Assembly: GCA_022778545.1 (NCBI GenBank)
Contig: JALFDW010000042.1
Location: 1-64,000, forward strand
DNA length: 64,000 nucleotides
Source of the DNA: a bacterium
GTDB taxonomy: Bacteria; Bacillota; Clostridia; Christensenellales; CAG-138
Direction: 5' to 3'
Shown: positions 7,338-63,181 of the stretch, piece after piece
How the letters are laid out: the number at the start of each line of letters is the position of its first letter
How positions within the stretch are numbered: the first letter of the stretch is position 1
Made by a program: the position numbers and the translations under genes
The notes under the pieces: generated by a model
Databases searched by the model: none
What the model was told of the DNA's origin: nothing
Seen by the model: only the letters and a program-made list of their open reading frames with translations

Positions 7338-7430
7338 CTTCGTACCCTTGCGTCGCTATCTACCCGTTGCTATACTGAAATCGTCAACAACGGGTGAATG
7401 TGGCTGCTACAACAAAAGGAGGATTATAAA

Positions 7431-13807: not shown

Positions 13808-14072
13808 TAATTGAACGAATGCGTTGAAGAAGAGGAGTACGCGCCCCATCCTGCATCAGAGAGACGGCTTCACCGGCTGCAAGGGCTGTCGGCGGGCAGG
13901 CGCGGAAGGTCGCTTCGGAGCATTCCGGCTGAGCGTGTGCCATGCGCGCGGGTAAGTCGGGACGTACGCGCCGCGTTAAGGCGCTTTGAGGTGGGGCTGC
14001 GCCGTGTGCGCGCCCAACAAAGGTGGTACCGCGAGCGTTTCGTCCTTTGAGGGCGAAAGGCTCTTTTTATTT
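13808..14072 (+). promoter_or_regulatory. T-box riboswitch of valS (specifier probably GUC)
   Basis: The T-box sequence AGGTGGTACCGCG at 14021-14033 pairs with uncharged tRNA acceptor ends. Upstream, GAGGAGTACG and the partner CGTAC close Stem I, AGAGAG lies in its distal loop, and GAAGGTC at 13905-13911 is a likely specifier loop with a Val codon (GTC). CGCC-GCGTTAA-GGCG forms Stem III. Downstream, TTTCGTCC-TTTGA-GGGCGAAA followed by CTCTTTTT is the terminator that the antiterminator replaces. The gene controlled encodes valyl-tRNA synthetase, which agrees with the specifier. Confidence 0.92.
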
Positions 14073-14114
14073 TATGATTTTATTGTGAACGAAAAGAACA
14101 GGAGGAACGACCCA

Positions 14115-16829
14115 ATGAACAGGGAAATGCCCAAAGCCTATGACCACAGCGCTGTGGAAAGCAGGCTCTATGAAACATGGGAAAAAAACGGATACTTTCA
14201 CGCGGAGGCTAACAGCGGCAAGCCGCCGTACTGCATCGTGATCCCCCCACCGAACATCACCGGCCAGCTCCACATGGGGCATGCGCTCGATGAGACGCTT
14301 CAGGACGCGATTATCCGCTATAAGCGCATGGCGGGCTTCGAAGCGCTCTGGCTGCCCGGCACGGACCATGCTTCCATCGCGACGGAGGCAAAGGTCGTGG
14401 AAGCCATGGCAAAGGAAGGACTCACGAAGGATATGCTCGGCCGCGACGGTTTTCTTGCGCGCGCATGGGACTGGAAGAACACCTACGGCAACCGCATCGT
14501 GAAGCAGCTGCGCAAGCTCGGTTCGAGCTGCGATTGGGAGCGTGAACGCTTCACGATGGATGAAGGCTGCTCCAACGCGGTGAAGGAAGTGTTCGTGCGC
14601 CTGTATGAAGAAGGCAAGATCTACCGTGGGAACCGGCTCGTGAACTGGTGCCCCCATTGCAACACGTCCATTTCGGATGCGGAGGTGGAGCATGAGGAGA
14701 AGGACGGCAGCTTCTGGCATCTGCTTTACCCCGTGAAGGAAACGGGCGAGATGCTTGAGCTTGCAACCACCCGCCCGGAAACCATGCTCGGCGACACGGC
14801 CGTTGCCATCAACGCAGAGGACCCGCGCTATGCGCACCTGCACGGCTGCCATGCGGTGCTGCCGCTGCTCAACAAGGAGATCCCCATCGTGTGCGACGAG
14901 CATGCTGACATGACAAAGGGCACAGGCGTTGTGAAGATCACCCCGGCGCATGACCCGAACGATTTCGAGGTGGGCCAGCGTCACGGCCTGCCGCTCGTAC
15001 GCGTGTTCACCTATGATGGCCATATGACCGGCGCCGCGGACAAAGCGGAAGCGGATGCGCTTTTCGCAAGCGGCCGCGCCACGGTGGGCGAGCCGGAAGT
15101 GCTCGATTGCGGGAAATATGCCGGCATGACAGCCATGGAAGCGCGCAAGGCGATCCTTGCCGACCTTGAAGCGGGCGGTTACCTGAAAAAGACGGAGCCC
15201 ATCAAGCACGAGGTTGGCACCTGTTACCGCTGCCACACCACCATCGAGCCGATGATCTCCAAGCAGTGGTTTGTGAAGATGGAGCCCCTTGCCGCGCCTG
15301 CCATCGAGTGTGTGGAGAAAGGCGAGATCCGCTTCGTGCCGGAACGCTTCACGAAAACATACATGAACTGGATGAGGAACACCCGCGACTGGTGCATCAG
15401 CCGCCAGCTCTGGTGGGGCCATCAGATCCCGGCGTGGTACTGCGCGGACTGCGGCGAGACCATCGTGGCAAAAGAAGCGCCCTGCGCCTGCCCGAAGTGC
15501 GGCAGCGCGAACCTCACACAGGATCCGGACACGCTCGATACGTGGTTCTCCTCCGCGCTCTGGCCGTTCAGCACGCTGGGCTGGCCGGATGAGGACAGCG
15601 AGGATCTCAAGTACTTCTATCCCACCAACACGCTTGTGACGGGCTATGACATCATCGGCTTCTGGGTGAGCCGCATGATCTTCTCCGGCCTGGAATACAC
15701 GGGAAAAGCGCCGTTCGACACCGTCTACATCCACGGCATCGTGCGCGATGAGCTGGGCCGAAAGATGTCGAAATCCCTCGGCAACGGCATCGATCCGTTG
15801 GAGATCATCGAGGAATACGGCGCGGATTCGCTCCGCTTCAGCCTCGTGACTGGCAACAGCGCCGGCAATGACATGCGCTTCTACAGCAAGAAGGTGGAAG
15901 CGGCGCGCAACTTCTGCAATAAGGTCTACAACGCCGCGCGCTTTGTGCTGATGAACCTTGGCGATGAGACGCCGGGCGAGATCGACCGCACTGCGCTCGA
16001 CATGGCGGACAAGTGGATCCTCCACCGCCTGAACACCATCACCAAGGAAGTGACGGGCAACCTCGACTCCTTCGACCTGAACCTTGCTGCGCAGAAGGTC
16101 TACGATTTCATCTGGACGGAGTTCTGTGACTGGTACATCGAAATGGCAAAGCCGCGGCTCAACGGCGCGGATGCTGCCGCGAAGGCGAATGTGCGGGCGA
16201 TCCTCGTGCATGTGCTCGCAAATTCCATGAAGCTGCTGCACCCGTTCATGCCGTTCATCACGGAGGAGCTTTACCAGAACCTGCCCGGCGCGGAGGAGAC
16301 CATCATGCGCGCGGCCTGGCCGCAGTATGACCCGGCGCTTGCATTCCCGGCGGAAGCGGCCACCATGGAAGGCGTCATGGAGCTCATCCGTTCCATCCGC
16401 AACGTGCGCGCGGAAATGAACGTGCCGCCCGCAAAGCGCGTCTCCATGACTCTTGTGGCGCATGCGGACGATACGGCGGCGATGGAAGAGGCTGCGCCCT
16501 ATGTGATGAAGCTCGCGGGCGCGGACCGCGTTCATGTGCAGCTGGATAAGTCCGGCATTCCGGAAAACGCAGTCTCCGTGGTGGGGCAGCTTGCGGAAGC
16601 CTTCATCCCGCTCACCGACCTTGTGGACATCGACAAGGAGATCGAGCGCATGAAGAAGGAGATCGCAAAGACTGAGGGCGACATCGCCCGTGCCGAGGGC
16701 AAGCTCAACAACGCAGGCTTCGTGGCCAAAGCGCCGGAGCGCGTGATCGCGGAGGAGCGGCAGAAGCTTGAAAACGCAAAGGCGCTGCTCGGAAAGCAGC
16801 AGGCGCGCCTTGCGGAGCTGCAAAAATAA
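14115..16829 (+). CDS. valS: Valyl-tRNA synthetase
   Basis: The start is the ATG at 14115 after CAGGAGGAAC; the track's 43 extra residues lie in the T-box leader. 904 residues. The HIGH motif appears as HMGH at residues 53-56 and KMSKS near residue 550 (GRKMSKSLGNGIDP). Between them is the CP1 editing domain (ATTRPETMLGDTAVAI). Zinc-binding-like CxxC pairs are present (NWCPHC, YRCHT, CADCGE, CPKC). The C-terminal arm is the expected coiled coil (VDIDKEIERMKKEIAKTEGDIARAEGKL). It attaches valine to tRNA-Val in the cytoplasm. Expression is controlled by the T-box. Confidence 0.97.
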   Translation: MNREMPKAYDHSAVESRLYETWEKNGYFHAEANSGKPPYCIVIPPPNITGQLHMGHALDETLQDAIIRYKRMAGFEALWLPGTDHASIATEAKVVEAMAKEGLTKDMLGRDGFLARAWDWKNTYGNRIVKQLRKLGSSCDWERERFTMDEGCSNAVKEVFVRLYEEGKIYRGNRLVNWCPHCNTSISDAEVEHEEKDGSFWHLLYPVKETGEMLELATTRPETMLGDTAVAINAEDPRYAHLHGCHAVLPLLNKEIPIVCDEHADMTKGTGVVKITPAHDPNDFEVGQRHGLPLVRVFTYDGHMTGAADKAEADALFASGRATVGEPEVLDCGKYAGMTAMEARKAILADLEAGGYLKKTEPIKHEVGTCYRCHTTIEPMISKQWFVKMEPLAAPAIECVEKGEIRFVPERFTKTYMNWMRNTRDWCISRQLWWGHQIPAWYCADCGETIVAKEAPCACPKCGSANLTQDPDTLDTWFSSALWPFSTLGWPDEDSEDLKYFYPTNTLVTGYDIIGFWVSRMIFSGLEYTGKAPFDTVYIHGIVRDELGRKMSKSLGNGIDPLEIIEEYGADSLRFSLVTGNSAGNDMRFYSKKVEAARNFCNKVYNAARFVLMNLGDETPGEIDRTALDMADKWILHRLNTITKEVTGNLDSFDLNLAAQKVYDFIWTEFCDWYIEMAKPRLNGADAAAKANVRAILVHVLANSMKLLHPFMPFITEELYQNLPGAEETIMRAAWPQYDPALAFPAEAATMEGVMELIRSIRNVRAEMNVPPAKRVSMTLVAHADDTAAMEEAAPYVMKLAGADRVHVQLDKSGIPENAVSVVGQLAEAFIPLTDLVDIDKEIERMKKEIAKTEGDIARAEGKLNNAGFVAKAPERVIAEERQKLENAKALLGKQQARLAELQK

Positions 16830-23113: not shown

Positions 23114-23908
23114 TCAACTGTCTTGTTTTGCATGCCAATGGAGTATAGCTTCCAGCACGCCGCCGCCGATGGAAAGCGCCTTGTCGGAGACGGTGAAGCA
23201 ATGCTCCTGCGCGCAGCGCGGGTCAACGTCGCCCGCTTTCATCCCGGCGGGAACGGAAAGACCGTCCGGCAGGATGCCGCGCAGGCAGCCTGCAATCTGT
23301 GTGCGGATGGGCATGCCGTCGACCTCCGCGACAACGTCGCCGGCGGCAACCATCGCGCCGATGGGGAGAAGGGGATGGAACACGCCCGCGGAGGGCGTAT
23401 ACAGCACGCGCTCTTTCGTATAGCCGCCCACGTTGCCGGGCACGCCGGTGTTGGGCAGGGCGGAACCTTCATAAATGCATCGGCCAAGCGTATGACCGCG
23501 CATCGTTTCCACGACGCAGTGGCAGTCTATGCCTGCGGTGAAGCCCGGGCCGAGGGCGATGACGAGCGGCGCGTCCGTGATGTGTGTGCCGAGGTTGCGC
23601 TTTGCAAGCGCAGCATCCACAAACACATCCGGCCGGTAAAGCGTGCGGCTTTCCGCGGCAGGGTCAACGATGACGGCAGGTTCACCGCGCCGAAGTGCCG
23701 TTCGTACTTCCTCTTCGTTCCGGCACAGGCGTGCGGTGACATCCTCGACCGTAGCCGTTCCACGGTATACCGCATCCGAGAATGCGACCGTGCGGCGCAC
23801 GGCTGTCGGTTGTGGCAGTTCGGTCAAAATCAGGGAAAAACCCGCATGGTGCAGGCGCAGAGCCGTGCCTGTTGCAAGATCGCCCGCACCGCGCATCAGA
23901 ACCAGCAT
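23114..23908 (-). CDS. yqeB: Selenium-dependent molybdenum cofactor protein YqeB
   Basis: The start is the ATG at 23908 (MLVLMRGAGDLATGTALRL) after AGGAAGTGA; the track's frame extends into yqeC. 264 residues. The N-terminal GAGDLATG is a nucleotide-binding Rossmann motif, and the C-terminal part carries the EVDG ... AGCLRGI hairpin seen in YqeB/EF2563 proteins. The family is linked by genome context and genetics to selenium-dependent molybdenum hydroxylases (xanthine dehydrogenase type), where it is thought to help build the labile-Se cofactor. Start overlaps the end of yqeC by 13 bases. Confidence 0.9.
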   Translation of the reverse strand: MLVLMRGAGDLATGTALRLHHAGFSLILTELPQPTAVRRTVAFSDAVYRGTATVEDVTARLCRNEEEVRTALRRGEPAVIVDPAAESRTLYRPDVFVDAALAKRNLGTHITDAPLVIALGPGFTAGIDCHCVVETMRGHTLGRCIYEGSALPNTGVPGNVGGYTKERVLYTPSAGVFHPLLPIGAMVAAGDVVAEVDGMPIRTQIAGCLRGILPDGLSVPAGMKAGDVDPRCAQEHCFTVSDKALSIGGGVLEAILHWHAKQDS

Positions 23909-24591
23909 CCGATCACTTCCTTTCGTAATGCGCCCACGGCGCAGGGATAGCCCTCCGCCCGCAGGAGGCGGGCAACGGTTTCGCCCCGGGCGCAAAGCTC
24001 CGGCGTATCCGCCTGGTTGAGCAGCGCTGCGCTCGGGCAGGAAACGCCGCAGTGGGAAAACGCGCGCAGCATGAGGTGCGCAACATCCTCCTCCGTGATG
24101 CAATGCTCTGCCGCAATGCCGGAAAGCGCGTGGCGGTGGAGCGTTTCGGCGGCAGGCCTGCTGAGTGCGGAAAGCCCGGCCACCTGAAGCAGAAGCCCGG
24201 TTTCTGCAGGAATGCAGGGCTCGTCCTCCCGGTGAAACTTGAGGGGCATGTGGCGGGAACCGTCCGCCTCGCAGAGCACATGATTGAACGCACGGCATGC
24301 CTCACGGAAAAATTCAGGCGAGAGGCCCATCATTTTTTCATTTTCGCCCGGGTAACCCGCAAGAACGAGTGCGCCGGGCTGTGCGGCGGCTGCGAGCTGC
24401 TCCGGCGCGGCAGGCGCAAGAAACACCATGCCCTCGGGCGGTGGCCACGCAAGGTGGGTGGTGGTCGTGAGCAACACGGAAGCACCCTCTGCGGCAAGCT
24501 GCCGCCCCAGCGTGAAAAGGAGCGTTGTTTTGCCGCCGCCGCCGATGATGGCGGTGAGCCGCGGAAGCGGGAAGGGCAGAGTCAGGCGCAT
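23896..24591 (-). CDS. yqeC: Selenium-dependent hydroxylase accessory protein YqeC
   Basis: The start is the ATG at 24591 after GGAGGT; the track adds 33 residues that cross the operator. 231 residues. It has a P-loop IIGGGGKTTLLFTLG near the N-terminus, the TTTTHLAWP motif and VLCEADGSRHMPLKFH, which are hallmarks of YqeC. It is a predicted NTPase for the selenium-dependent molybdenum hydroxylase cofactor. It is divergent from the BtuCD-type importer and shares the intergenic region containing two palindromes. No hydroxylase subunit genes occur in the window. Confidence 0.92.
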   Translation of the reverse strand: MRLTLPFPLPRLTAIIGGGGKTTLLFTLGRQLAAEGASVLLTTTTHLAWPPPEGMVFLAPAAPEQLAAAAQPGALVLAGYPGENEKMMGLSPEFFREACRAFNHVLCEADGSRHMPLKFHREDEPCIPAETGLLLQVAGLSALSRPAAETLHRHALSGIAAEHCITEEDVAHLMLRAFSHCGVSCPSAALLNQADTPELCARGETVARLLRAEGYPCAVGALRKEVIGCWF

Positions 24592-24606
24592 GGAAACCTC
24601 CTTTAG

Positions 24607-24630
24607 CGTTATTCTCAAATGAAAATAACG
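24607..24630. promoter_or_regulatory. Palindromic operator 1, CGTTATT-N10-AATAACG
   Basis: A 24-base near-perfect palindrome (arms of 7 with TCA/TGA symmetry inside), immediately upstream of the -35 box of the importer promoter and 16 bp before the yqeC start. Its left 11 bases recur exactly in operator 2. The form resembles ModE-type molybdate-responsive sites (C-G-x-TAT ... ATA-x-CG), but no ModE gene is visible. Confidence 0.7.
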
Positions 24631-24631
24631 G

Positions 24632-24660
24632 TGGACAACAATAAAAGGCGATGATATAAT
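24632..24660 (+). promoter_or_regulatory. Promoter of the importer operon
   Basis: TGGACA, 17-base spacer, perfect TATAAT. It is bracketed by the two palindromes; operator 2 covers the expected start site at about 24667. Confidence 0.85.
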
Positions 24661-24668
24661 CATTTTAT

Positions 24669-24692
24669 CGTTATTCTCACATAAAAACAACG
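24669..24692. promoter_or_regulatory. Palindromic operator 2, CGTTATTCTCA copy
   Basis: 24 bases, sharing CGTTATTCTCA with operator 1 and a degenerate right arm (AACAACG). The centres are 62 bp apart, about six helical turns, so two regulator dimers could sit on the same DNA face and pinch the promoter. Confidence 0.65.
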
Positions 24693-24702
24693 GTTTTGCA
24701 AT

Positions 24703-25806
24703 ATGAAACGTGGATTAAGGAAAAACAGAGAGTATTTTGCGGAGAGCAAAACGAAGCGGGCACGTGTTCTGTGGCTTCTGGCACTGCTTCTGTTCGCCGT
24801 GTTCCTTGGGTCGTTTGCCCTTGGCCGCTATGGCGTTTCGGCTTGGGATGTGGTGCGCATCTTTGCGTACCGCGCCGCTGCGTTCGTGGAACAGGGCCTT
24901 AGCGCGCTCTTGCAGCGCTCTGTGCATTTTCTCCCGGAAAGCATCCCGTGGACGGCGCAGATGGAAACGGCTGTCATCAATATCCGTTTGCCGCGCATCC
25001 TGCTTGCGTGCCTTGTGGGCTGCTGCCTTTCGGCGGCGGGCGCCTCGTATCAGGGCGTGATGGAAAACCCCATGGCTTCGCCGGATGTGCTCGGTGCGTC
25101 ATCGGGTGCGGCATTCGGCGCGGCGCTTGCTATTCTGCTTGGAGCATCGAAGCGCGGCATTACCCTGGCTGCCTTTGCGGCAAGCCTTTGTGCGGTGGGG
25201 CTCGTGCTTATCATCGCGCAGCGCGCGCCGGGACATCGGGTCGTGAACCTGATCCTTGCGGGCATCATGACGGGTTCGCTGCTCACAGCGGGGACATCCT
25301 ACGTTAAACTGGTAGCCGACCCTACGAACCAGCTCCCGGAGATCACCTACTGGCTCATGGGCAGCCTTTCCGGTGCAAGGCTCAAGGATGTAGGCTTCGC
25401 AGCGCTCCCGATGGCGCTCGGCTGCATCCCGCTCCTGCTGATCCGCTGGCACATCAACCTGCTGACCCTGGGCGAGGAGGAAGCGCACGCGCTTGGCGTG
25501 AACACGAACCTGCTGCGGCTTGTCGTGATCGTGTGCGCTACGCTCGTTACGGCGGCAAGCATCGCCGTTTCCGGCATGATCGGCTGGGTCGGCCTTGTGA
25601 TCCCGCACCTTGCGCGCAAACTTGTGGGCAGCAATTATCACTACCTTCTGCCGGCATCCATGCTTGCTGGCGCTGCGTTCCTGCTCGCAGTGGACGATGT
25701 CTCGCGCTGCCTGCTTGCGGTGGAGATCCCCATCGGCATCCTGACAGCGTTCATTGGCGCGCCGTTTTTCATTTATCTGATTCTGAGACGGGAGAAAACG
25801 CTGTGA
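24703..25806 (+). CDS. BtuC/FecCD-type ABC importer permease
   Basis: 367 residues with about ten membrane segments. Family marks include RLPRILLACLVGCCLSAAGASYQGVMENPMASPDVLGASSGAAFGA near the start and GMIGWVGLVIPHLARKLVGSNY and GEEEAHALGV in the coupling region. This fold imports metal chelates such as B12, siderophores and haem, and in some systems (MolBC) molybdate or tungstate. The neighbours (yqeB, yqeC, XdhC) favour a molybdate/tungstate-type oxyanion. No good Shine-Dalgarno sequence precedes the ATG. Confidence 0.9.
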   Translation: MKRGLRKNREYFAESKTKRARVLWLLALLLFAVFLGSFALGRYGVSAWDVVRIFAYRAAAFVEQGLSALLQRSVHFLPESIPWTAQMETAVINIRLPRILLACLVGCCLSAAGASYQGVMENPMASPDVLGASSGAAFGAALAILLGASKRGITLAAFAASLCAVGLVLIIAQRAPGHRVVNLILAGIMTGSLLTAGTSYVKLVADPTNQLPEITYWLMGSLSGARLKDVGFAALPMALGCIPLLLIRWHINLLTLGEEEAHALGVNTNLLRLVVIVCATLVTAASIAVSGMIGWVGLVIPHLARKLVGSNYHYLLPASMLAGAAFLLAVDDVSRCLLAVEIPIGILTAFIGAPFFIYLILRREKTL

Positions 25807-26588
25807 GCATTGAAGTGGAACGGCTGAATTTCGCATACCGGACGCGCCCCGTGCTCAGGGACGTGAGCTTTCATGCAGGAGAAGGGCAGCTTCTTGCCGT
25901 GCTCGGGCCGAACGGTGCGGGGAAGACGACGCTGTTCCGCTGCATACTGGGGATTTTGAAACGGTATCAGGGGCGTATCCTTATCGACGGAGCGGAGGCG
26001 CACTCGCTTCCTGCCCGGGAACTTGCGCGCCGGGTTGCCTATATCCCGCAGCTGCATGAGCAGGCGCCCTCTTATTCCGTGTTGGAAATGGTGCAGATGG
26101 GTACGGCACATGCCGTTTCTTCCTTTTCTGCGCCCAAAGAAAAAGAGACCGCAGCCGCGCTTGCGGCAATGGAACGCCTTGGTATCATGGGCCTTGCGGA
26201 ACAGAGTTTTTCACGCCTTTCCGGCGGTGAGCAGCAGCTTGTGCTGATCGCCCGGGCGCTTGCGCAGCAATCACGCACGCTTGTGATGGATGAGCCGACG
26301 GCAAGCCTCGATTACGGCAATCAGATACTCGTACTGGAACATGCCCGGGCGCTTGCGCAGGAGGGCTACACCGTGGTGCTTTCCACGCATAACCCGCAGC
26401 ATGCGCTCTCCTATGCGGATGTGGTGCTTGCGCTGCTGGATGGCTCGATCGCGGCCTTTGGCCCGCCGGCTGAGGTGATGGACGCGGCGCTGCTGTTCCG
26501 GCTTTACGGGGTACGCGCGGCGTTTGTGCGGACGGGGTGCGGCGTGCTGATCGCACCGGCTGAAAAAGGCGGTGAAGCCGGTGTTTGA
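25803..26588 (+). CDS. BtuD/FecE-type ABC importer ATPase
   Basis: The start is the GTG at 25803, overlapping the permease stop (GTGA). The track's 90 extra residues are read-through of the permease in another frame. 261 residues: Walker A GPNGAGKTT, Q-loop, signature LSGGEQQLVLIARAL, Walker B TLVMDEPTASLD, switch STHNPQHAL. The YIPQLHEQAPSYSVLEMVQMG segment is typical of FecE/BtuD. It pairs with the upstream permease. Confidence 0.93.
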   Translation: MSIEVERLNFAYRTRPVLRDVSFHAGEGQLLAVLGPNGAGKTTLFRCILGILKRYQGRILIDGAEAHSLPARELARRVAYIPQLHEQAPSYSVLEMVQMGTAHAVSSFSAPKEKETAAALAAMERLGIMGLAEQSFSRLSGGEQQLVLIARALAQQSRTLVMDEPTASLDYGNQILVLEHARALAQEGYTVVLSTHNPQHALSYADVVLALLDGSIAAFGPPAEVMDAALLFRLYGVRAAFVRTGCGVLIAPAEKGGEAGV

Positions 26589-27297
26589 GTGGACGGAGGA
26601 GAGCATCCGCTTCCGCGTGGACGCGGCGGAGCAGGTGGGCTTTGATGAAGCGATCGCCGCGCACATTTTGCCGTACCTGCCGGAAAACGCGCATGTGTGC
26701 GATGCGGGCTGCGGCCTTGGGTATTTAAGCATTGCGCTTGCAGCCCATTGCGGGGCTGTGACGGCTGTGGACACGAGCGGGGCTGCGCTTGCCGTGCTGC
26801 GCGAAAATGTAGAGCGGCTTAAAGTGGAGAACCTCCGCATCCGGAAGGCGGATCTGTTTTCCATGCAGCCGGAAGAACCATATGACGCAATGGTGTTCTG
26901 CTTTTTCGGGCAGATCAGAGAGACGCTTCGCGCGGTCCGAACGCAGTGTTCCGGGCGGGCGATTCTTGTGAAGCGGGATCATGTGTCACGCCGCTTTTCC
27001 CTCACGGAGCGGCCGGCGCGGCGGCTCGATTTTCAGGCGGCCTGCGATGAGCTCGCGGAATTGGGCGTACTGTTTTCCGCGGAGACATTCCCTGTGGAAA
27101 TGGGGCAGCCGTTCCGCTCGCTTGCGGATGCGGAGCGATTTTTTACGCTGTTTGCGGCGGGTGAAAAGCCTGAACCCGCTCAGCTCAGGGCGCGCCTTGT
27201 GGAGACGGGAAAGCAGGCATTCCCGTATTACTTTCCGGCTGAGCGTTCTTTGGGGTTGATCGTGCTTGAAACGGGAGATATTCCCGATTTCATATAA
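26572..27297 (+). CDS. Class I SAM-dependent methyltransferase
   Basis: 241 residues from a GTG that overlaps the ATPase end by 17 bases. Motif I VCDAGCGLGYLSIAL, motif II AVDTSGAALAVLRENV and the post-I acidic residue are present; motif IV reads DAMVFCFFG. The C-terminal half is unlike common small-molecule families I can name. Its position inside the importer operon suggests it modifies the imported metallophore or ligand, or a cofactor precursor. That is inference. Confidence 0.82.
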   Translation: MKPVFEWTEESIRFRVDAAEQVGFDEAIAAHILPYLPENAHVCDAGCGLGYLSIALAAHCGAVTAVDTSGAALAVLRENVERLKVENLRIRKADLFSMQPEEPYDAMVFCFFGQIRETLRAVRTQCSGRAILVKRDHVSRRFSLTERPARRLDFQAACDELAELGVLFSAETFPVEMGQPFRSLADAERFFTLFAAGEKPEPAQLRARLVETGKQAFPYYFPAERSLGLIVLETGDIPDFI

Positions 27298-27325: not shown

Positions 27326-28471
27326 ATGAAAAGACTATTTGCTTTTGTATTGGCCGCGCTCCTCGCGGTATCGCTGCTTGGTTGTGCCGCAGAAACGCCG
27401 GTGGAAACGCCTGCACCTGTGGAAACGGAGCATGTGGAGCCCACGCCTGCCGCAACGCCCGAGGCTGCAGAAACGCCTGAGCCTGCTGTGCGCCAATTCA
27501 CGGATTCCGTTGGGCGCACGGTGGAACTGCCCACGCAGATCGAAAAGGTTGCCATCTCCGGCCCGTTTGCGCAGATCGTTCTCTTTGCGCTCTGCCCGGA
27601 TAAGCTCGTGGGCATCGCTTCGGCGTGGGACGAGAGCGCAGAAAAGTACCTTGCAACCGAATATTACAACTTGCCGGAACTCGGGCAGCTTTACGGCGGG
27701 AAGGGCGATATGAACCTTGAAACGCTGCTTGCAAGCGGCGCGGAGGTCGTGATCGACGTTGGCGAACCAAAGGACAGCATCGTGGAGGATCTCGACGCGC
27801 TTACGGAGCAGACGGGGATCCCGTTCGTGCATGTTACGGCGACGACGGAAACGATGGGCGACGCTTACCGCAAGCTGGGCGAGCTGACCGGCATGGTGGA
27901 GGAGGCAGAAGCGCTTGCCGCTTACTGCGATGAGACGTATGCCAGGATGCTTGCGATCGCAGAGCGCGTTGAAAAGGCAAACCTGCTTTACTGCCTGGGT
28001 GACGCGGGGCAGAATGTGATCGCCACGGGAAGCTACCATGCAGAGATCATTGACCTGCTTTCCAACAACCTGGCCGTTGTGGACGATCCCTCCAGCAAGG
28101 GCAGCGGCAACGAAGTCGATATGGAGCAGATCCTGCTCTGGAACCCGGATGTGATCCTGTTTGCGCCGGGGAGCATCTATGCTTCCGTGGGAGAGGATGC
28201 GGCCTGGCAGCAGGTGACGGCGATCCAGAATGGAGCGTACTATGAAGTCCCGTTCGGGCCGTACAACTGGATGGGCTTCCCGCCTTCCGTGCAGCGCTAC
28301 CTGGGCATGCTGTGGATGGCGAAGGTGCTGTATCCGGAGGCTGCGGAGTACGACCTTTATACGGAGGTAGCGGAATACTTCCGCCTGTTCTATCACAGCG
28401 AACTGACTGAGGCACAGTATGATGCTTTGGTGGCCAATTCCATCGGCGCGGTAGAAAGCCCCGCTGCATGA
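27326..28471 (+). CDS. Periplasmic-binding-type lipoprotein of the BtuCD-type importer
   Basis: The start is the ATG at 27326 after TGGAGGATA. 381 residues, signal peptide with lipobox LLGC, a Pro/Thr/Glu linker, then the peripla_BP_2 (class III) domain: QFTDSVGRTVELPTQIEKVAI, LVGIASAW, SGAEVVIDVGEP and a long central helix. It captures the substrate outside the membrane for the upstream permease/ATPase. The ligand cannot be read from sequence; the operon context suggests molybdate/tungstate or a metal chelate. It is coupled to XdhC by ATGA. Confidence 0.88.
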   Translation: MKRLFAFVLAALLAVSLLGCAAETPVETPAPVETEHVEPTPAATPEAAETPEPAVRQFTDSVGRTVELPTQIEKVAISGPFAQIVLFALCPDKLVGIASAWDESAEKYLATEYYNLPELGQLYGGKGDMNLETLLASGAEVVIDVGEPKDSIVEDLDALTEQTGIPFVHVTATTETMGDAYRKLGELTGMVEEAEALAAYCDETYARMLAIAERVEKANLLYCLGDAGQNVIATGSYHAEIIDLLSNNLAVVDDPSSKGSGNEVDMEQILLWNPDVILFAPGSIYASVGEDAAWQQVTAIQNGAYYEVPFGPYNWMGFPPSVQRYLGMLWMAKVLYPEAAEYDLYTEVAEYFRLFYHSELTEAQYDALVANSIGAVESPAA

Positions 28472-29502
28472 ACGATATGAAAAAGCTGTTTGAAACGATG
28501 CGGGATACGCTTGCCCGTGGCGAGGATGCGGTGCTCTGCACGATCATTGCAAGCTCCGGCTCCACGCCGCGCGGCAGCGGCGCGAAGATGGCCGTTTTTG
28601 CCGATGGAAAGACCTGCGGGACGATTGGCGGCGGCGCGGTGGAGCATGAGAGCATCCTCCTTGCCCAACAGGCACTTTTGCGCCGGGAGACGTTTGCGCA
28701 GGGTTTCAACCTTGCGCCGAACCAGGTTGCGGACATCGGCATGATCTGCGGCGGAAAGGTTTTGGTCGCATTTTCATTCTTTGCGGGCGGGGATGCCGAG
28801 ACGCTTGCGCTGTTCACCTATATTGCCGGGCTGTTTGATATGCAGAAGGATACCTGGCTTGTTACAAAGCTCTGTAACGGTGCGGCTGTGGACATGGGCG
28901 TATATGCGCGGGACACGGGGCTCCTTTTTGCAAAGGATATTTCGGAGACGGCGATCCTGCCGCTCCTTGGGCCGCGCGCGGCGCGCGGGGAAGGCGAGCC
29001 GTGCTATTATGTTGAACCGCTGACCCGCGCAGGGATCGTGTATGTGTTTGGCGGCGGGCATGTTTCGCAGGAGCTTGTGCCTGTGCTCGCGCATGTGGGC
29101 TTTTCCGTGGCGGTCTATGAGGAACGGGAGCGCTTTGCTGCGCCGGAGCTGTTTCCGGGCGCGGTGCGAACCATTATGGCGCCGTTTTCGGAGGCTTCCG
29201 CCCGCATCGGCATCATGCCGGAGGATTACGCCGTCATCATGACGCGGGGACATCAGGGAGACTTCATTGTGCTGGAGCAGATGCTCCGCACGGAAGCCAC
29301 CTATATCGGCGTGATCGGGAGCCGCCACAAGATCGCTGCGACGAATGCACGCCTGCTTGCTGCCGGCATCCCGGAGGAAGCGCTTGCGCGCATCCATACG
29401 CCGATCGGCCTTGCCATCGGCGCGGAAACCCCTGCGGAGATCGCCATCAGCGTTGCCGCGGAGCTGATCGCACACCGCGCAGGCATCCGGAAGGGAGAAT
29501 AA
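28468..29502 (+). CDS. XdhC family molybdenum hydroxylase maturation protein
   Basis: 344 residues. The N-terminal XdhC/CoxI domain reads CTIIASSGSTPRGSGAKMAVFADGKTCGTIGGGAVE. The C-terminal Rossmann domain reads VYVFGGGHVSQELVPVLAHVGFSVAVYEER, with DYAVIMTRGHQGDFIVLEQML and YIGVIGSRHK. XdhC proteins bind molybdenum cofactor and insert it, after sulfuration, into xanthine-dehydrogenase-type enzymes. It starts within the binding-protein stop codon, so metal uptake and cofactor insertion are cotranscribed. Confidence 0.93.
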   Translation: MNDMKKLFETMRDTLARGEDAVLCTIIASSGSTPRGSGAKMAVFADGKTCGTIGGGAVEHESILLAQQALLRRETFAQGFNLAPNQVADIGMICGGKVLVAFSFFAGGDAETLALFTYIAGLFDMQKDTWLVTKLCNGAAVDMGVYARDTGLLFAKDISETAILPLLGPRAARGEGEPCYYVEPLTRAGIVYVFGGGHVSQELVPVLAHVGFSVAVYEERERFAAPELFPGAVRTIMAPFSEASARIGIMPEDYAVIMTRGHQGDFIVLEQMLRTEATYIGVIGSRHKIAATNARLLAAGIPEEALARIHTPIGLAIGAETPAEIAISVAAELIAHRAGIRKGE

Positions 29503-29504: not shown

Positions 29505-30041
29505 GTGAGAAAGCATATTCTGCTTACCGGCGCGCGGGGGGCAGGAAAAAGCACGTTGATCCGCCGCCTGTGCGCGGAGGCGGAACTGCCTGTTTACGGC
29601 TTTGTCACAAAGCGGGAGGAAGCGGATGAAACGGGGTTCCACCCGATCTACATCCATCCCGCCTGGGAAGAGGCCTCCATGCACCGCCATACGCGGGAAA
29701 ACCTTGTGGGCACCTGCAACCAAAAAATCCATAACGTGTGCCCGGTGGTGTTTGATGCATTGGGTGTTCGTTACCTCGCGGCGGCGCGGCCGGGCGGCCT
29801 GATCGTTATGGATGAGCTTGGCTTCATGGAAGCGAAGGCGGAAGTGTTCAAACAGGCCGTGCTGCATGCGCTCGGTGGTGACATCCCGGTGCTTGCCGCC
29901 GTGAAGGACAGGCGGGATGTTCCGTTCCTGAATGCGGTATGCAGTGCACCCAAAGCAGCGCTTTATACCGTCACCTCGGAAAACCGCGAGGCGCTGTTTG
30001 CGGAGCTTCTGCCCATCGTGAAAGCCTGGCGGGGCGAGTAA
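29505..30041 (+). CDS. THEP1-like nucleoside-triphosphatase
   Basis: 178 residues from a GTG after AAGGGAG. P-loop LLTGARGAGKSTLIRRL at the N-terminus, Walker B-like LIVMDELGFMEAK, as in the NTPase_1 (THEP1) family. The TKREEADETGFH stretch is the family's second conserved block. Two bases separate it from XdhC, so it is the last gene of the operon. Proteins of this family recur near molybdenum hydroxylase genes, but the biochemical role there is not established. Confidence 0.82.
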   Translation: MRKHILLTGARGAGKSTLIRRLCAEAELPVYGFVTKREEADETGFHPIYIHPAWEEASMHRHTRENLVGTCNQKIHNVCPVVFDALGVRYLAAARPGGLIVMDELGFMEAKAEVFKQAVLHALGGDIPVLAAVKDRRDVPFLNAVCSAPKAALYTVTSENREALFAELLPIVKAWRGE

Positions 30042-31126: not shown

Positions 31127-31618
31127 ATGAACGAGAATGATTCTAAGCAATTACCAGAAAACGCGATGGTTGAGGACAAGGCCCTTATGGCTAAGGCAGA
31201 TGCTTTGTTCCGCTTTGTGATGCTCTATTATGATTTTGCAAATGAAAAGAAGGATTATGGTACCGGTGAGTGTGTGAGCATGGTAGAAGCGCATACGCTC
31301 ATGGAGATTGCGGATCATCCGGGCATTACAGTATCATTTCTTGCAGAACGCGCAAACCGCACTAAAGGAGCGATTTCTCAAACAATTAAAAAGCTTGACC
31401 ATATGAAATATATTACTCGTCAGAAAACCGACTCTGATCAGCGTATTGTTGGCCTGTATCCGACAGAACGTGGAATGCGGCTCCATCAGGCGCACAGAGA
31501 ATATGACTATGCCGAGATGTGCAGCACGTTCGATGAACTTCTGGAATATTGCAGCCAGGAAGAACTCGATGCGTTCTTCCGCGTGGTAAATGCATACCTG
31601 AAAATTTTCTCAACATAA
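31127..31618 (+). CDS. MarR family transcriptional regulator
   Basis: 163 residues after GCGGAGGGG. The winged helix reads MVEAHTLMEIADHPGITVSFLAERANRTKGAISQTIKKLDHMKYITRQKTDSDQRIVGLYPTERG, with the conserved DQR wing. Flanking helices form the dimer interface. It lies upstream of the two aminopeptidase genes in the same direction and probably regulates itself and them. TAAACTTT-like half sites occur near both (30953 and 31698). Confidence 0.9.
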   Translation: MNENDSKQLPENAMVEDKALMAKADALFRFVMLYYDFANEKKDYGTGECVSMVEAHTLMEIADHPGITVSFLAERANRTKGAISQTIKKLDHMKYITRQKTDSDQRIVGLYPTERGMRLHQAHREYDYAEMCSTFDELLEYCSQEELDAFFRVVNAYLKIFST

Positions 31619-31839: not shown

Positions 31840-32976
31840 ATGAGAGATTCAAGGGTTAGGACGCTTGCGCATAAGCTGGTAAGTTTTTCCTGCAACGTAC
31901 AATCCGGTGAGAATGTGCTCATTGAGAATTATGATGAGAATGCAGATGAGCTTGTGCTGGCGCTGATCGAAGAGATTTATGCAGTAGGCGCGAAGCCCTA
32001 TGTATGGCGGCGGAACAACCGTGTGCAGCGCGCATTGATGATGGGAGTTACCGAAGAACAGCTTGACCTCATGGCAGCTATGGATGCAGAATTAATGCGC
32101 AATATGCAGGCTTATATTTTGATTCGCTGTACAAACAATGCTGCAGAGGGCGCAGATATCCCACAGGAGCGCAGTAAGCTCTATGGAAAACATTATGGGG
32201 TTCCTGTGCATAATGATATCCGCATCCGGCAGACGAAATGGTGCTATCTGGAGTACCCGACACCTGCGCAGGCTCAGCTTGCGGGCATGTCTACGGAGGC
32301 GTTTGAGAATTACTACTTCCGCGTCTGCACGATGGATTATGCGCGCCTTGCGAAGGCGTCAGAAGCGCTTAAGGCGCTGATTGAACGCACGGATAAGGTC
32401 CATATTCTTGGCAAGGGCACTGATCTGGCTTTTTCAATCAAGGGGATTGGCGGCATAATCAGTGCAGGGGAAAAGAACATTCCGGACGGTGAGGTGATGA
32501 CAGCGCCGGTGCGTGAGAGCGTGAATGGTGTGATTACCTACAATGTTCCCTCCAATTACGGCGGAGAGGTGCATACAGGTGTGGCACTCACATTTGAAAA
32601 CGGGCGTATTGTTAAAGCGGAAGGCAGCAATCCCGGCAAGATCAATGAAATCCTTGACCGCGATGCAGGCGCGCGCTATATAGGCGAATTTGCTTTCGGT
32701 ACGAACCCTTATTGCACCCGGCCAATAGGGAAAACGCTCTATGACGAGAAAATCGCGGGCAGTTTCCATTTCACGCCCGGTGACTGCTATGACGAGGCGG
32801 ATAATGGAAATCATTCCAGCGTCCATTGGGATTTGATTGCGATCCAGACGCCGGAATATGGCGGCGGTGAGATCTGGTTCGATGATGTGCTCATTCGCAA
32901 GGACGGAAGGTTTGTGCTGCCGGAATTGGAGCCGCTGAACCCGGAAAACCTGATGGATGCGGAGAAGGAGGCATAA
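31840..32976 (+). CDS. M29 family aminopeptidase (copy 1)
   Basis: 378 residues, cytoplasmic. The metal and catalytic residues of thermophilic aminopeptidase T/AmpS fit: DGEVMTAPVRESVNG, YIGEFAFGTN, SFHFTPGDCYDEADNGNHSSVHWDL (two His and Asp) and EIWFDDVLIRKDGRFV at the end. It removes N-terminal residues from peptides using two divalent metal ions. Very close to the next gene, for example an identical stretch of 14 residues around RIRQTKWCYLEYPT, so it is a tandem duplication. The ribosome site is AAAGGAGG. Confidence 0.93.
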   Translation: MRDSRVRTLAHKLVSFSCNVQSGENVLIENYDENADELVLALIEEIYAVGAKPYVWRRNNRVQRALMMGVTEEQLDLMAAMDAELMRNMQAYILIRCTNNAAEGADIPQERSKLYGKHYGVPVHNDIRIRQTKWCYLEYPTPAQAQLAGMSTEAFENYYFRVCTMDYARLAKASEALKALIERTDKVHILGKGTDLAFSIKGIGGIISAGEKNIPDGEVMTAPVRESVNGVITYNVPSNYGGEVHTGVALTFENGRIVKAEGSNPGKINEILDRDAGARYIGEFAFGTNPYCTRPIGKTLYDEKIAGSFHFTPGDCYDEADNGNHSSVHWDLIAIQTPEYGGGEIWFDDVLIRKDGRFVLPELEPLNPENLMDAEKEA

Positions 32977-32980
32977 GGCA

Positions 32981-34099
32981 ATGAAAGACGGCCGAGTACA
33001 GGAACTTGCAAAAAAACTTGTGACGTTTTCATGTGAAGTGCAGCCTAACGAGAACGTGCTTATTGAAACGTATGGCGCGGCTTGTGATGAACTTTTGATA
33101 GCGCTGATTGAGGAGGTCTATGCTGCCGGTGCAAAGCCCTATGTGTGGCGCCGGGACAATCGTGTTCAGCGCGCGCTTTCCATGGGATTCACAGAGGATC
33201 AGTTAGACCTTATGGCCAGGCTGGATGCTGAGATGATGCGCAAAATGCAGGCATACATTCTTGTGCGCAGCAGCGATAATACGTTTGAGTCCGTTGATAT
33301 ACCCGCGGAACGCAAGCGTATCGGAGGACTTCATTACAGCAAACCCGTACACAGCGATGTGCGCATCCGGCAGACGAAATGGTGCTATCTGGAGTACCCA
33401 ACACCTGCGCAGGCCCAGCTTTCGGGCATGTCCACGGAGGCGTTTGAGGATTTCTATTTTAAAGTCTGTACGATGGACTATGCAAGGATGGAGGCGGCGC
33501 TTGAGCCGCTCAAGCAGCTGATGGAACGCACCGATCGCGTACACATCATCGGAAAAGGTACGGATCTGACTTTTTCGATTAAGGGGATTGGTGTGCGCAA
33601 GGGAGCAGGCCATTGGAATTTGCCGGATGGTGAGATATTTACCGCACCGGTACGTGATAGCGTAAACGGCGTGATTTCTTATAACATTCCATCAGTACAG
33701 GCAGGGTTTTCCTTTGAAAATGTCGTGCTGCACTTTGAAAACGGTCGTATTGTGAAGGCGGAAGCAAACGATGTGAAACGGGTCAACGAGCTGCTTGATA
33801 AAGATGCAGGTGCGCGTTACATAGGTGAATTCGCATTTGGTGTCAGCCCATACTTCCGTGAGCCGATGGGGAAAATTCTTTATGACGAGAAAATCGATGG
33901 CAGTTTCCATTTCACGCCTGGAGACTGTTATGATGAGGCGGATAATGGAAATCACTCTTCTCTGCATTGGGATCTTGTTTGCGTGCAGCGGCCGGAGTAC
34001 GGCGGTGGTGAAATCTGGTTCGATGATGTGCTGATCCGCAAGGACGGAAGGTTTGTGCTGCCGGAACTGGAGCCGCTGAACCCGGAAAATCTGAAATGA
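32981..34099 (+). CDS. M29 family aminopeptidase (copy 2)
   Basis: The start is the ATG at 32981 (MKDGRVQELAKK) after GAAGGAGG; the track's first eight residues belong to the overlap. 372 residues with the same metal ligands as copy 1 (DGEIFTAPVRDSVNG, IGEFAFGVSP, HFTPGDCYDEADNGNHSSLHWD). It differs most between residues 205 and 255, next to the active site, so the two enzymes may have different peptide preferences. It follows copy 1 by 4 bp in one operon. Confidence 0.93.
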   Translation: MKDGRVQELAKKLVTFSCEVQPNENVLIETYGAACDELLIALIEEVYAAGAKPYVWRRDNRVQRALSMGFTEDQLDLMARLDAEMMRKMQAYILVRSSDNTFESVDIPAERKRIGGLHYSKPVHSDVRIRQTKWCYLEYPTPAQAQLSGMSTEAFEDFYFKVCTMDYARMEAALEPLKQLMERTDRVHIIGKGTDLTFSIKGIGVRKGAGHWNLPDGEIFTAPVRDSVNGVISYNIPSVQAGFSFENVVLHFENGRIVKAEANDVKRVNELLDKDAGARYIGEFAFGVSPYFREPMGKILYDEKIDGSFHFTPGDCYDEADNGNHSSLHWDLVCVQRPEYGGGEIWFDDVLIRKDGRFVLPELEPLNPENLK

Positions 34100-35750: not shown

Positions 35751-37082
35751 ATGTATATGCAAATGCAAGGGGAACAAAGACAAATCCAGAGGCGGCACAT
35801 TTATTTTTACATGCAGATATTGGAATTAAATGCTATAGAATTGGAACGTTTTCTGAATTCTGCCGCACAGGAGAACCCTTTATTGGAGGCGAGTATTCCT
35901 GAACGGGAATTTCAATTCGAAAGGATTAGCAGGATAGCACCGGAATTTGGACGCAGGCTGCAACGGGATGAACAGACGGATCTGGATATTGCAGCAGAAA
36001 AAGGTGAAAGTCTTGAAGAGTATCTTTCAGAGCAGATAGCGGCATTGCATCTGGATGCAAAAACAGAGCAAGCTCTGCGTTTTTTAGTAGGGAACTTGGA
36101 TGAAAACGGATATTTGGATGTCTCACAGGAAGCTTTTGGGGCTGCTTGGGGAAATGAGTTATTTGATCGATCGCTTTCGTTGCTTCAAGGACTGGAACCA
36201 GCAGGCATCGGGGCACGTAACTTGGCTGAATGTCTTACGCTTCAATTACATAGACAGGAGGAACGGGATCCTTTATTGTATGAGCTGGCACTAAATTATC
36301 TAGAGCTTCTTGGAAAAGGACAGATTAAGCGCGTCGCGCAGGAACTTCAAACCAGCGTTGCACGTGTTGAACGAGCAAAGAAAAAACTGGCGCAACTTAC
36401 TCCGAAGCCGGGTAATGGGTTCGGAAAAAATGAAATAGGCATTCAATATGTTTTGCCAGATGTTGAGGTCATTTGTGACGAGAAGGATGAAGAATTACAA
36501 TTGATCGTAGCGGAGCAATACTTGCCAAATTATGCAATAAGCGGATATTACGCGTCGCTTTTACAAAACGGGGATTTAAGTGCGGAAGAACGGGAGTATT
36601 TCCAAGGAAAACTGCGTGCGGCTCGTTGGATTATCGAATGCATTGAACGGCGTCGGACTATGCTGCAGAACTGCGCGCAAATCATTATACAAACACAGGA
36701 GCTGTTCTTTCGCAGTGGAAAGCTGCCTTTGCATTCGCTTTCTGCGCAGGAGGTTTCCGAGCGTCTTTCAGTACATCCGTCTACAGTTTATCGTACCATA
36801 AAAGGGAAATACATTGCTTGCAGGTATGGCACATATCCTTTGTCGGATTTTTTGATTCGTTGTTCATCCCGGGAAACTGCGGATTGGAGAAAAGTTGGGA
36901 AAGATGAGATTGTGCAACGCATACGGACATTGATAGAAGCTGAAGAAAAACGAAGCCCTTTGAGCGATCAGATGATTGCGAACCAGCTGCGTCTGGAAAA
37001 CATCGAAATATCAAGACGAACTGTGGCGAAATATCGTGAAGAGGCGCTGCTGCCGACGGCGGCTGCACGACGGCAGCATTAG
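35751..37082 (+). CDS. rpoN: RNA polymerase sigma-54 factor
   Basis: 443 residues. Region I reads QRRHIYFYMQILELNAIELERFLNSAAQENPLLE; it has fewer glutamines than usual. The core-binding domain covers about 90-280 (GYLDVSQEAF, LEPAGIGARNLAECLTLQL, PKPGNGF). The C-terminal HTH VSERLSVHPSTVYRTIKGKYIACRYGTYPLSDF and the RpoN box SRRTVAKYREE bind the -12 and -24 elements. It lies 35 bp or less upstream of an activator gene and 2.4 kb before a sigma-54 promoter, so it may be dedicated to this locus. Confidence 0.96.
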   Translation: MYMQMQGEQRQIQRRHIYFYMQILELNAIELERFLNSAAQENPLLEASIPEREFQFERISRIAPEFGRRLQRDEQTDLDIAAEKGESLEEYLSEQIAALHLDAKTEQALRFLVGNLDENGYLDVSQEAFGAAWGNELFDRSLSLLQGLEPAGIGARNLAECLTLQLHRQEERDPLLYELALNYLELLGKGQIKRVAQELQTSVARVERAKKKLAQLTPKPGNGFGKNEIGIQYVLPDVEVICDEKDEELQLIVAEQYLPNYAISGYYASLLQNGDLSAEEREYFQGKLRAARWIIECIERRRTMLQNCAQIIIQTQELFFRSGKLPLHSLSAQEVSERLSVHPSTVYRTIKGKYIACRYGTYPLSDFLIRCSSRETADWRKVGKDEIVQRIRTLIEAEEKRSPLSDQMIANQLRLENIEISRRTVAKYREEALLPTAAARRQH

Positions 37083-37117
37083 AAAGGAAAGCGGAAACGT
37101 TGGAAGAGGAGAACGGA

Positions 37118-39085
37118 GTGGAACGAAAGAAGATCGTGATTGTGACGGGAAACGACAGGGTCGCTTCAAGCATTGAAGACGACGTTCGGCTCATTTTGGG
37201 TGATAGCGTCATAATTGAAAAGATGTTTCCACCACAGGTCGCTGAAATGGAACATGTGGAAGGAGATCTGTTCCTTCTTACACGTTTGGACAGAATTGGG
37301 AATCTGGAAGCAAAAGTTCAGGACAAGGGACGCATGCTCTGTATTAGCCGAACAATTTGGGAAAGTGGATTGCAGCAGATTCTTGCGATTCCACCGCAAA
37401 GCAAAGTGCTTGTGGTAAATGATTCACTAAAAAGCACGTTAGAGATGCAGAAACTGCTTCTTAGCCTCAACGTGCCGGGGCTTACATACATTCCTTATTC
37501 CGAAGATTCTTATGACCCATCACTTACCGTTGCGATTACGCCGGGGGAACCTTCCTATGTGCCGCCTTATATCGAAAAGATCATTGATGTGGGAAACCGC
37601 CATATCGACATTTCTACGGCACTGAGCATCTGTAATATCCTGAAAGCAAATACGCCGGAAACATATGAAGCACTATTGCGCTATATGAGCCTTGTAATTA
37701 CGCCAGGCAATACAACAAAACGATATCAGAATGCTTTAATTGGCAATATGCGCATGGAAAGCATCTTGCAGCACATGGAACAAGGTCTGTTGCTTACGCT
37801 TTCAAGTGGCGAGGTCGTTTTGGCAAATCCCAAATTGGAGCAACTTGCAAACTGCAGTACGAAAAATGAGCTGCTTTCGCTGAGAGATTTGTTTCCTGAA
37901 CCTATAGCACAGCAGCTTGAGGAAATGAAGGACGACGCGATTGCCTTAAATCTCGGAGGGCGGGAAATCGTGGTGAACCATACAATTCTGAAGTTCAGCA
38001 CAAATATTCACCAACGGCTCTATTTTTTCTCGGATGTAACTTATTTGCGATACTTGGAGCAAAGCGCTGAAATGCGCGCGAAAAAAAGTGGATTTGTAGC
38101 AAAACACACATTCAACGATATTGTGCATCGTTCTGTTGCGATGAAAGAATGTATCAGGCAGCTGAGAATGTTTGCGGAATCCGATAAATCGATCCTGATA
38201 CAGGGAGAGAGCGGTACGGGGAAGGAGCTGTTGGCACAATCCGTTCATAACAGTTCACCGCGCCACCACAGCCCATTTGTTGCGGTGAATTGTGCCGCAT
38301 TGCCGGAAAGCCTTTTAGAAAGCGAGCTGTTTGGCTATGAAAAAGGCGCATTTACCGGGGCGCGGCAGAGCGGAAAGATGGGCTTATTTGAACAAGCAAA
38401 CGGAGGGACGATTTTTCTTGATGAGATCGGCGATATGCCGGTTGCACTTCAGTCGCGTTTATTGCGCGTTTTGCAGGAAAAACAGGTCATGCGGATCGGT
38501 GGGGATTATGTTGTGAATGTAAATGTGCGTGTGATTGCAGCAACTAACCAAGACCTGATGCAAAAGATCAACGAAGGTATGTTCCGGCACGATCTTTTTT
38601 ATCGTCTTTGTGTGCTTCCCTGTCAGGTGCCTGCGCTCCGGGAGCGCAGGGAGGATATCCTGCCGCTCTTTCAGCACTTTACAGGGCTTACAAATGTTCC
38701 GGACGATATTGCAGACCGCCTTATGCGTTATGATTGGCCCGGCAATGTTCGCGAACTTCAGAATGCGGCGGATTATTATGGGATGATGAGCGAATTTGAA
38801 AACCCGCTTCCCAAACATATCAGCGGAAGCGTGCCACAAAGCCTGCTGGCAGCTTCGGAAATTGACTATGCAGTTCTGTCCATTCTCTATGAGGGTTCGC
38901 TGGGGAGAACTGCTCTAATATATAAATTGAAAGAGCGGGGAATGGATATGACTGAATATGCGCTTCGGCATAAATTGGAAGATTTGGAACATAAGGGTAT
39001 TTTGGTGCGGCAGATTGGGCGGGGAGGTACGGCGTTGACTGATAAAGGAAAGGACGTGCTGAAGAAGCTGCAAGCAAGACACTGA
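37118..39085 (+). CDS. Sigma-54-dependent activator with PAS and AAA+ domains and winged-helix C-terminus
   Basis: I prefer the GTG at 37118 (after AGAGGAGAA); the TTG at 37100 in the track is possible. 655 residues. The N-terminal 200 residues are of unknown type (maybe a PrpR_N-like sensor). A PAS-like domain follows (MEQGLLLTLSSGEVVLANPKLEQLA), then the AAA+ domain with GESGTGKE, the sigma-54 contact loop GAFTGA, and GGTIFLDEIGDM. The C-terminus reads MTEYALRHKLEDLEHKGILVRQIGRGGTALTDKGKDVL, which looks like a winged helix rather than the usual Fis-type HTH. It very likely activates the promoter at 39378. Confidence 0.93.
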   Translation: MERKKIVIVTGNDRVASSIEDDVRLILGDSVIIEKMFPPQVAEMEHVEGDLFLLTRLDRIGNLEAKVQDKGRMLCISRTIWESGLQQILAIPPQSKVLVVNDSLKSTLEMQKLLLSLNVPGLTYIPYSEDSYDPSLTVAITPGEPSYVPPYIEKIIDVGNRHIDISTALSICNILKANTPETYEALLRYMSLVITPGNTTKRYQNALIGNMRMESILQHMEQGLLLTLSSGEVVLANPKLEQLANCSTKNELLSLRDLFPEPIAQQLEEMKDDAIALNLGGREIVVNHTILKFSTNIHQRLYFFSDVTYLRYLEQSAEMRAKKSGFVAKHTFNDIVHRSVAMKECIRQLRMFAESDKSILIQGESGTGKELLAQSVHNSSPRHHSPFVAVNCAALPESLLESELFGYEKGAFTGARQSGKMGLFEQANGGTIFLDEIGDMPVALQSRLLRVLQEKQVMRIGGDYVVNVNVRVIAATNQDLMQKINEGMFRHDLFYRLCVLPCQVPALRERREDILPLFQHFTGLTNVPDDIADRLMRYDWPGNVRELQNAADYYGMMSEFENPLPKHISGSVPQSLLAASEIDYAVLSILYEGSLGRTALIYKLKERGMDMTEYALRHKLEDLEHKGILVRQIGRGGTALTDKGKDVLKKLQARH

Positions 39086-63150: not shown

Positions 63151-63181
63151 AAAATAATTTTTACAAGGGGATATCAGACAC

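Follow-up and report, generated by a model that had tools for sequence, protein, structure and literature searches.

The locus considered here raises the question of whether two related palindromes flanking a promoter between divergent genes are operators through which one regulator sets metal uptake and cofactor genes together, as an earlier note on this DNA had proposed. The locus lies within a stretch of 64,000 nucleotides, hereafter the window. The first palindrome, predicted operator site 1 (24607-24630, no strand assigned; CGTTATTCTCAAATGAAAATAACG), is a perfect CGTTATT-N10-AATAACG. The second, predicted operator site 2 (24669-24692, no strand assigned; CGTTATTCTCACATAAAAACAACG), carries one mismatch (AACAACG). 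Between them, the predicted promoter of an importer operon (24632-24660, plus strand) reads TGGACA-17-TATAAT and matches 11 of the 12 consensus bases. Both palindromes, their 62-bp spacing and this promoter are found where the earlier note had placed them, with one site abutting the -35 box and the other at the start site. Indeed, a single base pair separates the end of site 1 from the btuC -35 box, and site 2 begins 8 bp past the -10 box, where btuC transcription is predicted to start or just beyond that point. The btuC ATG follows 10 bp downstream of the end of site 2. On the other side, the start of yqeC was read from the sequence as the ATG at 24591 on the minus strand, with an AGGAGG ribosome site at 24597-24602; site 1 is upstream of this gene and starts 15 bp from its ATG.

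The two sites lie within a 31-nt direct repeat of 87% identity (24602-24632 and 24664-24694, 62 bp apart), and sequence analysis indicates that each palindrome is capable of forming a hairpin. These features would suit a chance repeat, or RNA stem-loops devoid of any regulatory role, but the probability of such an explanation is negligible, given that the palindromes recur at fixed places in the promoters of many genera, far more often than shuffling predicts, and with loops that have diverged. In the 64-kb window, sites 1 and 2 are the sole matches to CGTTATT-N10-AATAACG with up to two mismatches. The chance expectation for this search, obtained from dinucleotide shuffles, is 0.11, and two matches were never obtained in 100 shuffles. 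These shuffles, together with the promoter conservation observed throughout the family, rule out a chance repeat. A cobalamin or Moco riboswitch was also rejected as the regulator, since the RNA family search returned neither of them, nor any other RNA family, near the promoter.

The minus-strand gene yqeC (23896-24591) encodes the selenium cofactor biosynthesis protein YqeC (TIGR03172, E=1e-47, above the cut-off). On the plus strand, the presumed operon begins with a FecCD/BtuC-type permease gene (btuC, 24703-25806; PF01032, E=2e-86) and the gene of the BtuD-type ATPase of the importer (25803-26588; PF00005, E=1e-32). It continues with a SAM-dependent methyltransferase (26572-27297; PF05175/PF13649), a substrate-binding lipoprotein of the PBP_2 type (27326-28471, start set at the lipoprotein signal; PF01497, E=1e-13) and an XdhC-family maturation factor of molybdenum hydroxylases (28468-29502; XdhC_C PF13478, E=1e-42). 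The latter also matches NF045664 (E=4e-89) and TIGR02964 (E=1e-44), in both cases below the cut-off. The last gene encodes a P-loop NTPase of the NTPase_1 family (29505-30041; PF03266, E=2e-25). The closest named relative of the permease is found in a Christensenella MAG (78% identity). Related loci maintain this order; of 80, the ATPase follows the permease in 79 and a substrate-binding protein is present in 74, the methyltransferase in 37, the NTPase in 28 and XdhC in 24. To call the locus a molybdenum-hydroxylase cluster, as had been done, is nevertheless too strong. It contains yqeC and XdhC-type accessory genes of the selenium-dependent molybdenum hydroxylase set, along with the NTPase, the methyltransferase and the importer, but profile scans found no molybdenum hydroxylase catalytic gene among the window proteins scanned, and the three molybdenum hydroxylases of the host genome are all on other contigs.

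Like MolBCA, the importer pairs a permease and an ATPase of Type II with a substrate-binding protein that resembles MolA. Compared with solved structures, the lipoprotein matches 4pag (E=1e-34), 4ovk, 4hn9 and MolA/HI_1472 (3psa, E=1.6e-12); 4pag and 4ovk outscore MolA, which is thus not its closest solved relative. The resemblance to MolBCA of Haemophilus influenzae concerns the Type II (BtuCD-type) architecture and the similarity of the binding protein to HI_1472 (PMC4031551). In contrast with MolBCA, the importer shares a ModE-like operator here with genes for the methyltransferase, XdhC and the NTPase; the regulation of MolBC-A itself was called poorly understood (PMC4031551). As a relative of MolBCA, the importer would most likely take up molybdate or tungstate. 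One could also imagine that it carries corrinoids or an iron chelate and that the palindromes are a metal-box unrelated to molybdenum, since the permease and ATPase are of the BtuCD/FecCD type and match BtuC models best, though below the cut-offs of those models. This is quite improbable in view of the XdhC gene in the operon, the match of the binding protein to MolA, the lack of a cobalamin riboswitch or other RNA family match near the promoter, and the occurrence of the motif at modA, xdh and selenium genes rather than at iron genes.

This distribution was established by comparing 103 genomes from 26 genera of the family to which the window belongs; these genomes are mostly incomplete MAGs and are interrelated, hence they are not independent samples. 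Counts of the exact motif in the 103 genomes were 18, versus 2 for a reversed control. With up to two mismatches, the motif lies upstream of 28 of 30 btuC orthologues (0.03 expected). For yqeC, the corresponding figure is 13 of 30 (0.03 expected), rising to 19 of 30 with up to three mismatches (0.23 expected), and further loci concur. Where btuC and yqeC are unlinked, each promoter has an operator of its own; the simplest assignment is therefore to yqeC for site 1 and to the importer for site 2. Upstream of modA, the motif was found at up to two mismatches in 4 of 26 cases, all from one genus; most modA genes of the family are devoid of it and none carries it outside that genus. A class-wide scan with the strict consensus returned only one other genome in 390, so that the strict form is largely confined to the family. 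In distant named genomes, however, 16 of 80 btuC promoters carry the motif at up to three mismatches versus about 2 expected, in a set that includes Peptococcaceae, Thermacetogenium and Spirochaetes MAGs. Judging from its conservation and its position in promoters, the motif is an operator.

In the 2.14-Mb host genome, exact CGTTAT-N12-ATAACG has just two occurrences, one being site 1 and the other lying upstream of yedF (C41:3825-3848). A sequence model trained on 53 sites, all from other genomes, recovered three matches in the host at E<=0.5, namely site 1 with the best score (19.2 bits), site 2 with the second best, and the yedF site. A scan allowing two mismatches gave 37 sites versus 64 for the reversed control, which means that such sites by themselves are noise. 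A one-mismatch site at C24:127650 was discarded as a target because it has no matching gene context. The regions fetched around the three molybdenum hydroxylases of the host contain no operator.

The genes found under the motif outline a putative regulon. Besides yedF (TIGR03527) in the host genome, they include yedE (TIGR04112), divergent from a selenocysteine-lyase-like aminotransferase gene in several genera. Genes of molybdenum enzymes are a molybdopterin-dependent aldehyde oxidoreductase (genome G100), XdhA (G006) and XdhB with a 2Fe-2S subunit (G028). Hence, as for ModE operators, the motif precedes modA, in four promoters of one genus, and aldehyde oxidoreductase or xdh genes, in three genomes. 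Carbamate kinase is under the motif in G028, and so is an ABC ATPase adjoining allantoinase in G028 and G100. Among the assigned sites, none was at iron or haem genes. The earlier note had reasoned that absence of the motif from orthologous regions, or its occurrence mainly at iron or haem genes, would speak against its proposal; the motif is instead conserved in these regions, and the proposed correlation with molybdenum and selenium genes is borne out by modA, xdh/aldehyde oxidoreductase, yedE, yedF and the selenocysteine-lyase-like gene. These predicted targets agree with the gene set already described for selenium-dependent molybdenum hydroxylases (PMC2276186, PMC5322559). In two genera, an operator separates an allantoinase-like gene from a branched-chain-type ABC transporter (loci L297 in G100 and L299 in G028), which hints that transport linked to purine breakdown may be under the same control. 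An exact match beside an amino-acid-type ABC permease (G100:C79, L033) was set aside as probably due to chance.

The sites had been likened to ModE operators, and the comparison holds in several respects. The published E. coli ModE site is ATCGCTATATA-N6-TATATAACGAT (PMC2700814) and the consensus found here is CGTTATTCT-N6-AGAATAACG. Both are 24-bp palindromes between outer CG pairs with CGNTAT/ATAACG outer half-sites (PMC2700814, PMC545781). Site 1 agrees perfectly with the ModE-operator span and its outer half-sites CGNTAT...ATANCG, and site 2 with one mismatch. The inner half-site differs, being TCT/AGA here and ATA/TAT in E. coli, and the window contains no match to the E. coli-type site CGCTATATA-N6-TATATAACG at up to three mismatches. 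As with E. coli ModE, modA and molybdoenzyme genes are among the targets; unlike it, the targets also include selenium genes and a BtuCD-type importer.

As to the regulator, the earlier statement that no ModE gene is visible is true of the window, but the same genome encodes a ModE-like protein of 127 residues on another contig (C11:23054-23434, minus strand). It consists of the ModE DNA-binding domain alone, without a TOBE part. The ModE family search of the host genome located it at C11:23087-23365 (TIGR00637, E=7.5e-17), with 62.1 bits and therefore below the cut-off of 98.5. The protein matches the solved structures 2ijl (1.8e-8) and E. coli ModE 1b9m (7e-7), and PF00126 is the only domain that a domain scan found in it. 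Sixteen homologues are all short (127-141 residues), with a nearly invariant MAYSKAW recognition segment and with the GGK-GGGA-LT segment. E. coli ModE shares the winged-helix domain, in which the AW and GGK-GGGA-LT segments are conserved, and differs by its TOBE (di-Mop) molybdate-binding part. No TOBE domain (PF03459) was found in the five genomes of the host's genus, the host included. Thus, the sensing of molybdate by such a regulator cannot follow the ModE model. A TOBE/Mop gene (77-80 residues) is present near the btuC operator and importer in G091, from the same comparison (contig C34). In the same genome, contig C7 carries a second Mop gene, a copy of the operator and a btuC-like fragment, as if the region had been duplicated (L308, L304).

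Single-domain ModE proteins have been noted in Desulfovibrio and D. psychrophila, where no E. coli-type sites were found for them and their sensing was termed 'not clear' (PMC545781). The protein described here resembles them in being a DNA-binding domain alone, of about 110-140 residues, with 2ijl as the best solved match. In contrast to those cases, the gene is accompanied here by a ModE-like operator and a set of targets. No published operator or target set for a single-domain ModE was found in the accessible literature.

Homologues of the ModE-like gene occur in 67 of the 103 family genomes, and in ten genomes the gene lies 54-635 bp from yqeC. In the host genome, it is linked neither to yqeC nor to any motif. 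Model hits (E<=0.5) were present in 14 of 16 genomes with the gene versus 2 of 14 without it (Fisher p=0.00013), in a test that is not fully independent because many genomes devoid of the gene are also devoid of the target genes. Among genomes with btuC or yqeC, the co-occurrence of gene and operator is weaker (p=0.016). Operators are present in three genomes with no strong ModE match, two of which have a completeness of only 62-70%; in eleven others the gene is present and neither btuC nor yqeC has an operator; G032 has kept btuC and yqeC and has neither the ModE-like gene nor operators. The promoter of the ModE-like gene itself carries the motif in only 3 of 30 cases at up to two mismatches, some of them shared with adjacent yqeC, and general autoregulation was rejected for this reason. 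Computation thus shows the sites, how they are conserved and placed, which genes they target, and a regulator gene that is linked to yqeC in some genomes.

The moderate co-occurrence at btuC and yqeC and the lack of linkage in the host leave some room for another dimeric regulator (a MarR, LysR or TaoR type, for instance), which would sense selenium or purines and make the ModE-like gene a bystander. Several targets are indeed selenium genes (yedE, yedF, the selenocysteine-lyase-like gene) or purine genes (the allantoinase neighbour, carbamate kinase), and the window carries a MarR gene (31127-31618). We hold such a regulator to be unlikely, since the span and outer half-sites are those of the published ModE consensus, ten genomes have the ModE-like gene next to yqeC, modA and molybdenum hydroxylase genes are among the targets, and G032 is devoid of both gene and operators.

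The preferred reading, to which we assign a probability of roughly 0.78, is that the palindromes are operators of a TOBE-less repressor of the ModE family encoded on contig C11, that they belong to a joint molybdenum-plus-selenium regulon, and that the importer most likely handles molybdate or tungstate. The proposal of ModE-type operators through which one regulator governs metal uptake and cofactor genes is thereby supported by a motif conserved in orthologous promoters and found at molybdenum and selenium genes. A dimer of the ModE-like protein would bind site 2 and block the start of the btuC-type importer operon. On site 1, a dimer would sit just upstream of yqeC and also beside the importer -35 box. 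The two sites are about six helical turns apart, hence probably on one face of the helix, and as the promoters of yqeC and of the importer are back to back, they could shut or open both directions together. Molybdate or tungstate would be the signal.

Operator positions are consistent with repression. Several genera have btuC promoters of the form TGGACA (or nearly so)-17-TATA(A/C)T in which the operator follows at 7-10 bp from the -10 box; a dimer bound there would cover the start site. One further genus has the -10 hexamer of its btuC promoters, TATACT, within the operator itself. Both positions, past or over the -10 box, are repressor positions. The arrangement in which two sites pinch the promoter, stressed in the earlier note, is real here and is not a conserved unit; it is confined to three genomes with divergent yqeC and btuC, namely the host, G052 and G053, which belong to the same genus and have spacings of 62, 64 and 64 bp. 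In G051, of the same genus, yqeC is elsewhere and a single site is present, and most relatives carry just one operator, which covers the start site or the -10 box. Paired sites also occur at the divergent promoter of yedE and the lyase gene, with a spacing of 51 bp, and at modA, with one of 22 bp. These distances are close to five and two helical turns and suggest one helix face, as does the 62-bp spacing.

E. coli ModE activates at some molybdoenzyme promoters. The ModE-like regulator could likewise activate from site 1 and repress from site 2, in which case the pinch would work as a switch and not as a double lock. In each of the three promoters with two sites (spacings of 62 and 64 bp), site 1 is directly beside the -35 box, an activator-like position, and in other genomes the operators at L305-L307 are well upstream of hydroxylase genes. 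We regard this as rather unlikely: two sites occur only with a divergent yqeC, most btuC promoters have just the operator at the start site or -10 box, and the separate operator at unlinked yqeC genes explains site 1 without activation.

With repression from both sites as the preferred reading, the same palindrome at molybdate-uptake, selenium and molybdenum-enzyme genes indicates that a pared-down relative of ModE probably switches these genes together. The operator at yedF in the host, and those at modA, yedE, selenocysteine-lyase-like and hydroxylase genes in relatives, would make up the joint regulon, and this regulon would serve selenium-dependent molybdenum hydroxylases. The gene set of these enzymes was inferred by profiling and neighbourhood, or by means of C. 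difficile mutants, according to the available portions of three papers (PMC2276186, PMC5322559, PMC11448449). It shares with the genes described here yqeC, yedE, yedF, a selenocysteine-lyase-like gene, carbamate kinase and xdh genes. Those portions name no ModE-type operator for the set, whereas one is observed here; for C. difficile yqeB, they describe a sigma-54 promoter and predicted DioR control. A search mostly outside the subscription literature did not bring up any case of selenium genes controlled by ModE.

More tentatively, and at somewhat less than even odds, a ModE protein devoid of the molybdate-binding domain, in a genus in which no TOBE protein was found, may run a regulon coupling molybdenum or tungsten import, selenium handling and hydroxylase maturation. 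The route of the signal would then be novel for ModE, for example through a site in the winged-helix dimer, a molybdopterin or selenium compound, or a partner protein. If the overall reading is right, it provides a testable 24-bp consensus for single-domain ModE, connects molybdenum or tungsten with a BtuCD-type importer that had been uncharacterised, and offers a first link, at the level of transcription, between the supply of molybdenum and that of selenium for those selenium enzymes that are least understood. The setting is that of gut-type Clostridia, which may break down purines.

Several other features of the window may be mentioned. A T-box leader (13815-14050) is found upstream of the valine--tRNA ligase gene (13986-16829), and a malK-I RNA motif (53228-53406) just upstream of a MalK-type ABC ATPase gene (53401-54519). 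A pemK RNA motif match (6744-6945, 62.5 bits) has a tyrosine recombinase gene nearby (7398-8597), possibly as part of a mobile element. Downstream of the importer locus and of the MarR gene, two adjoining M29-family aminopeptidase genes (31840-34099) appear to be a tandem duplication. The region 35751-39085 carries a Sigma-54 (rpoN) gene, then the gene of a PrdR-like sigma-54 activator, then an oligopeptide ABC transporter operon. Finally, a raiA RNA (62931-63141) with a full-length Rfam match (199 bits) lies upstream of a short reading frame (63111-63548).
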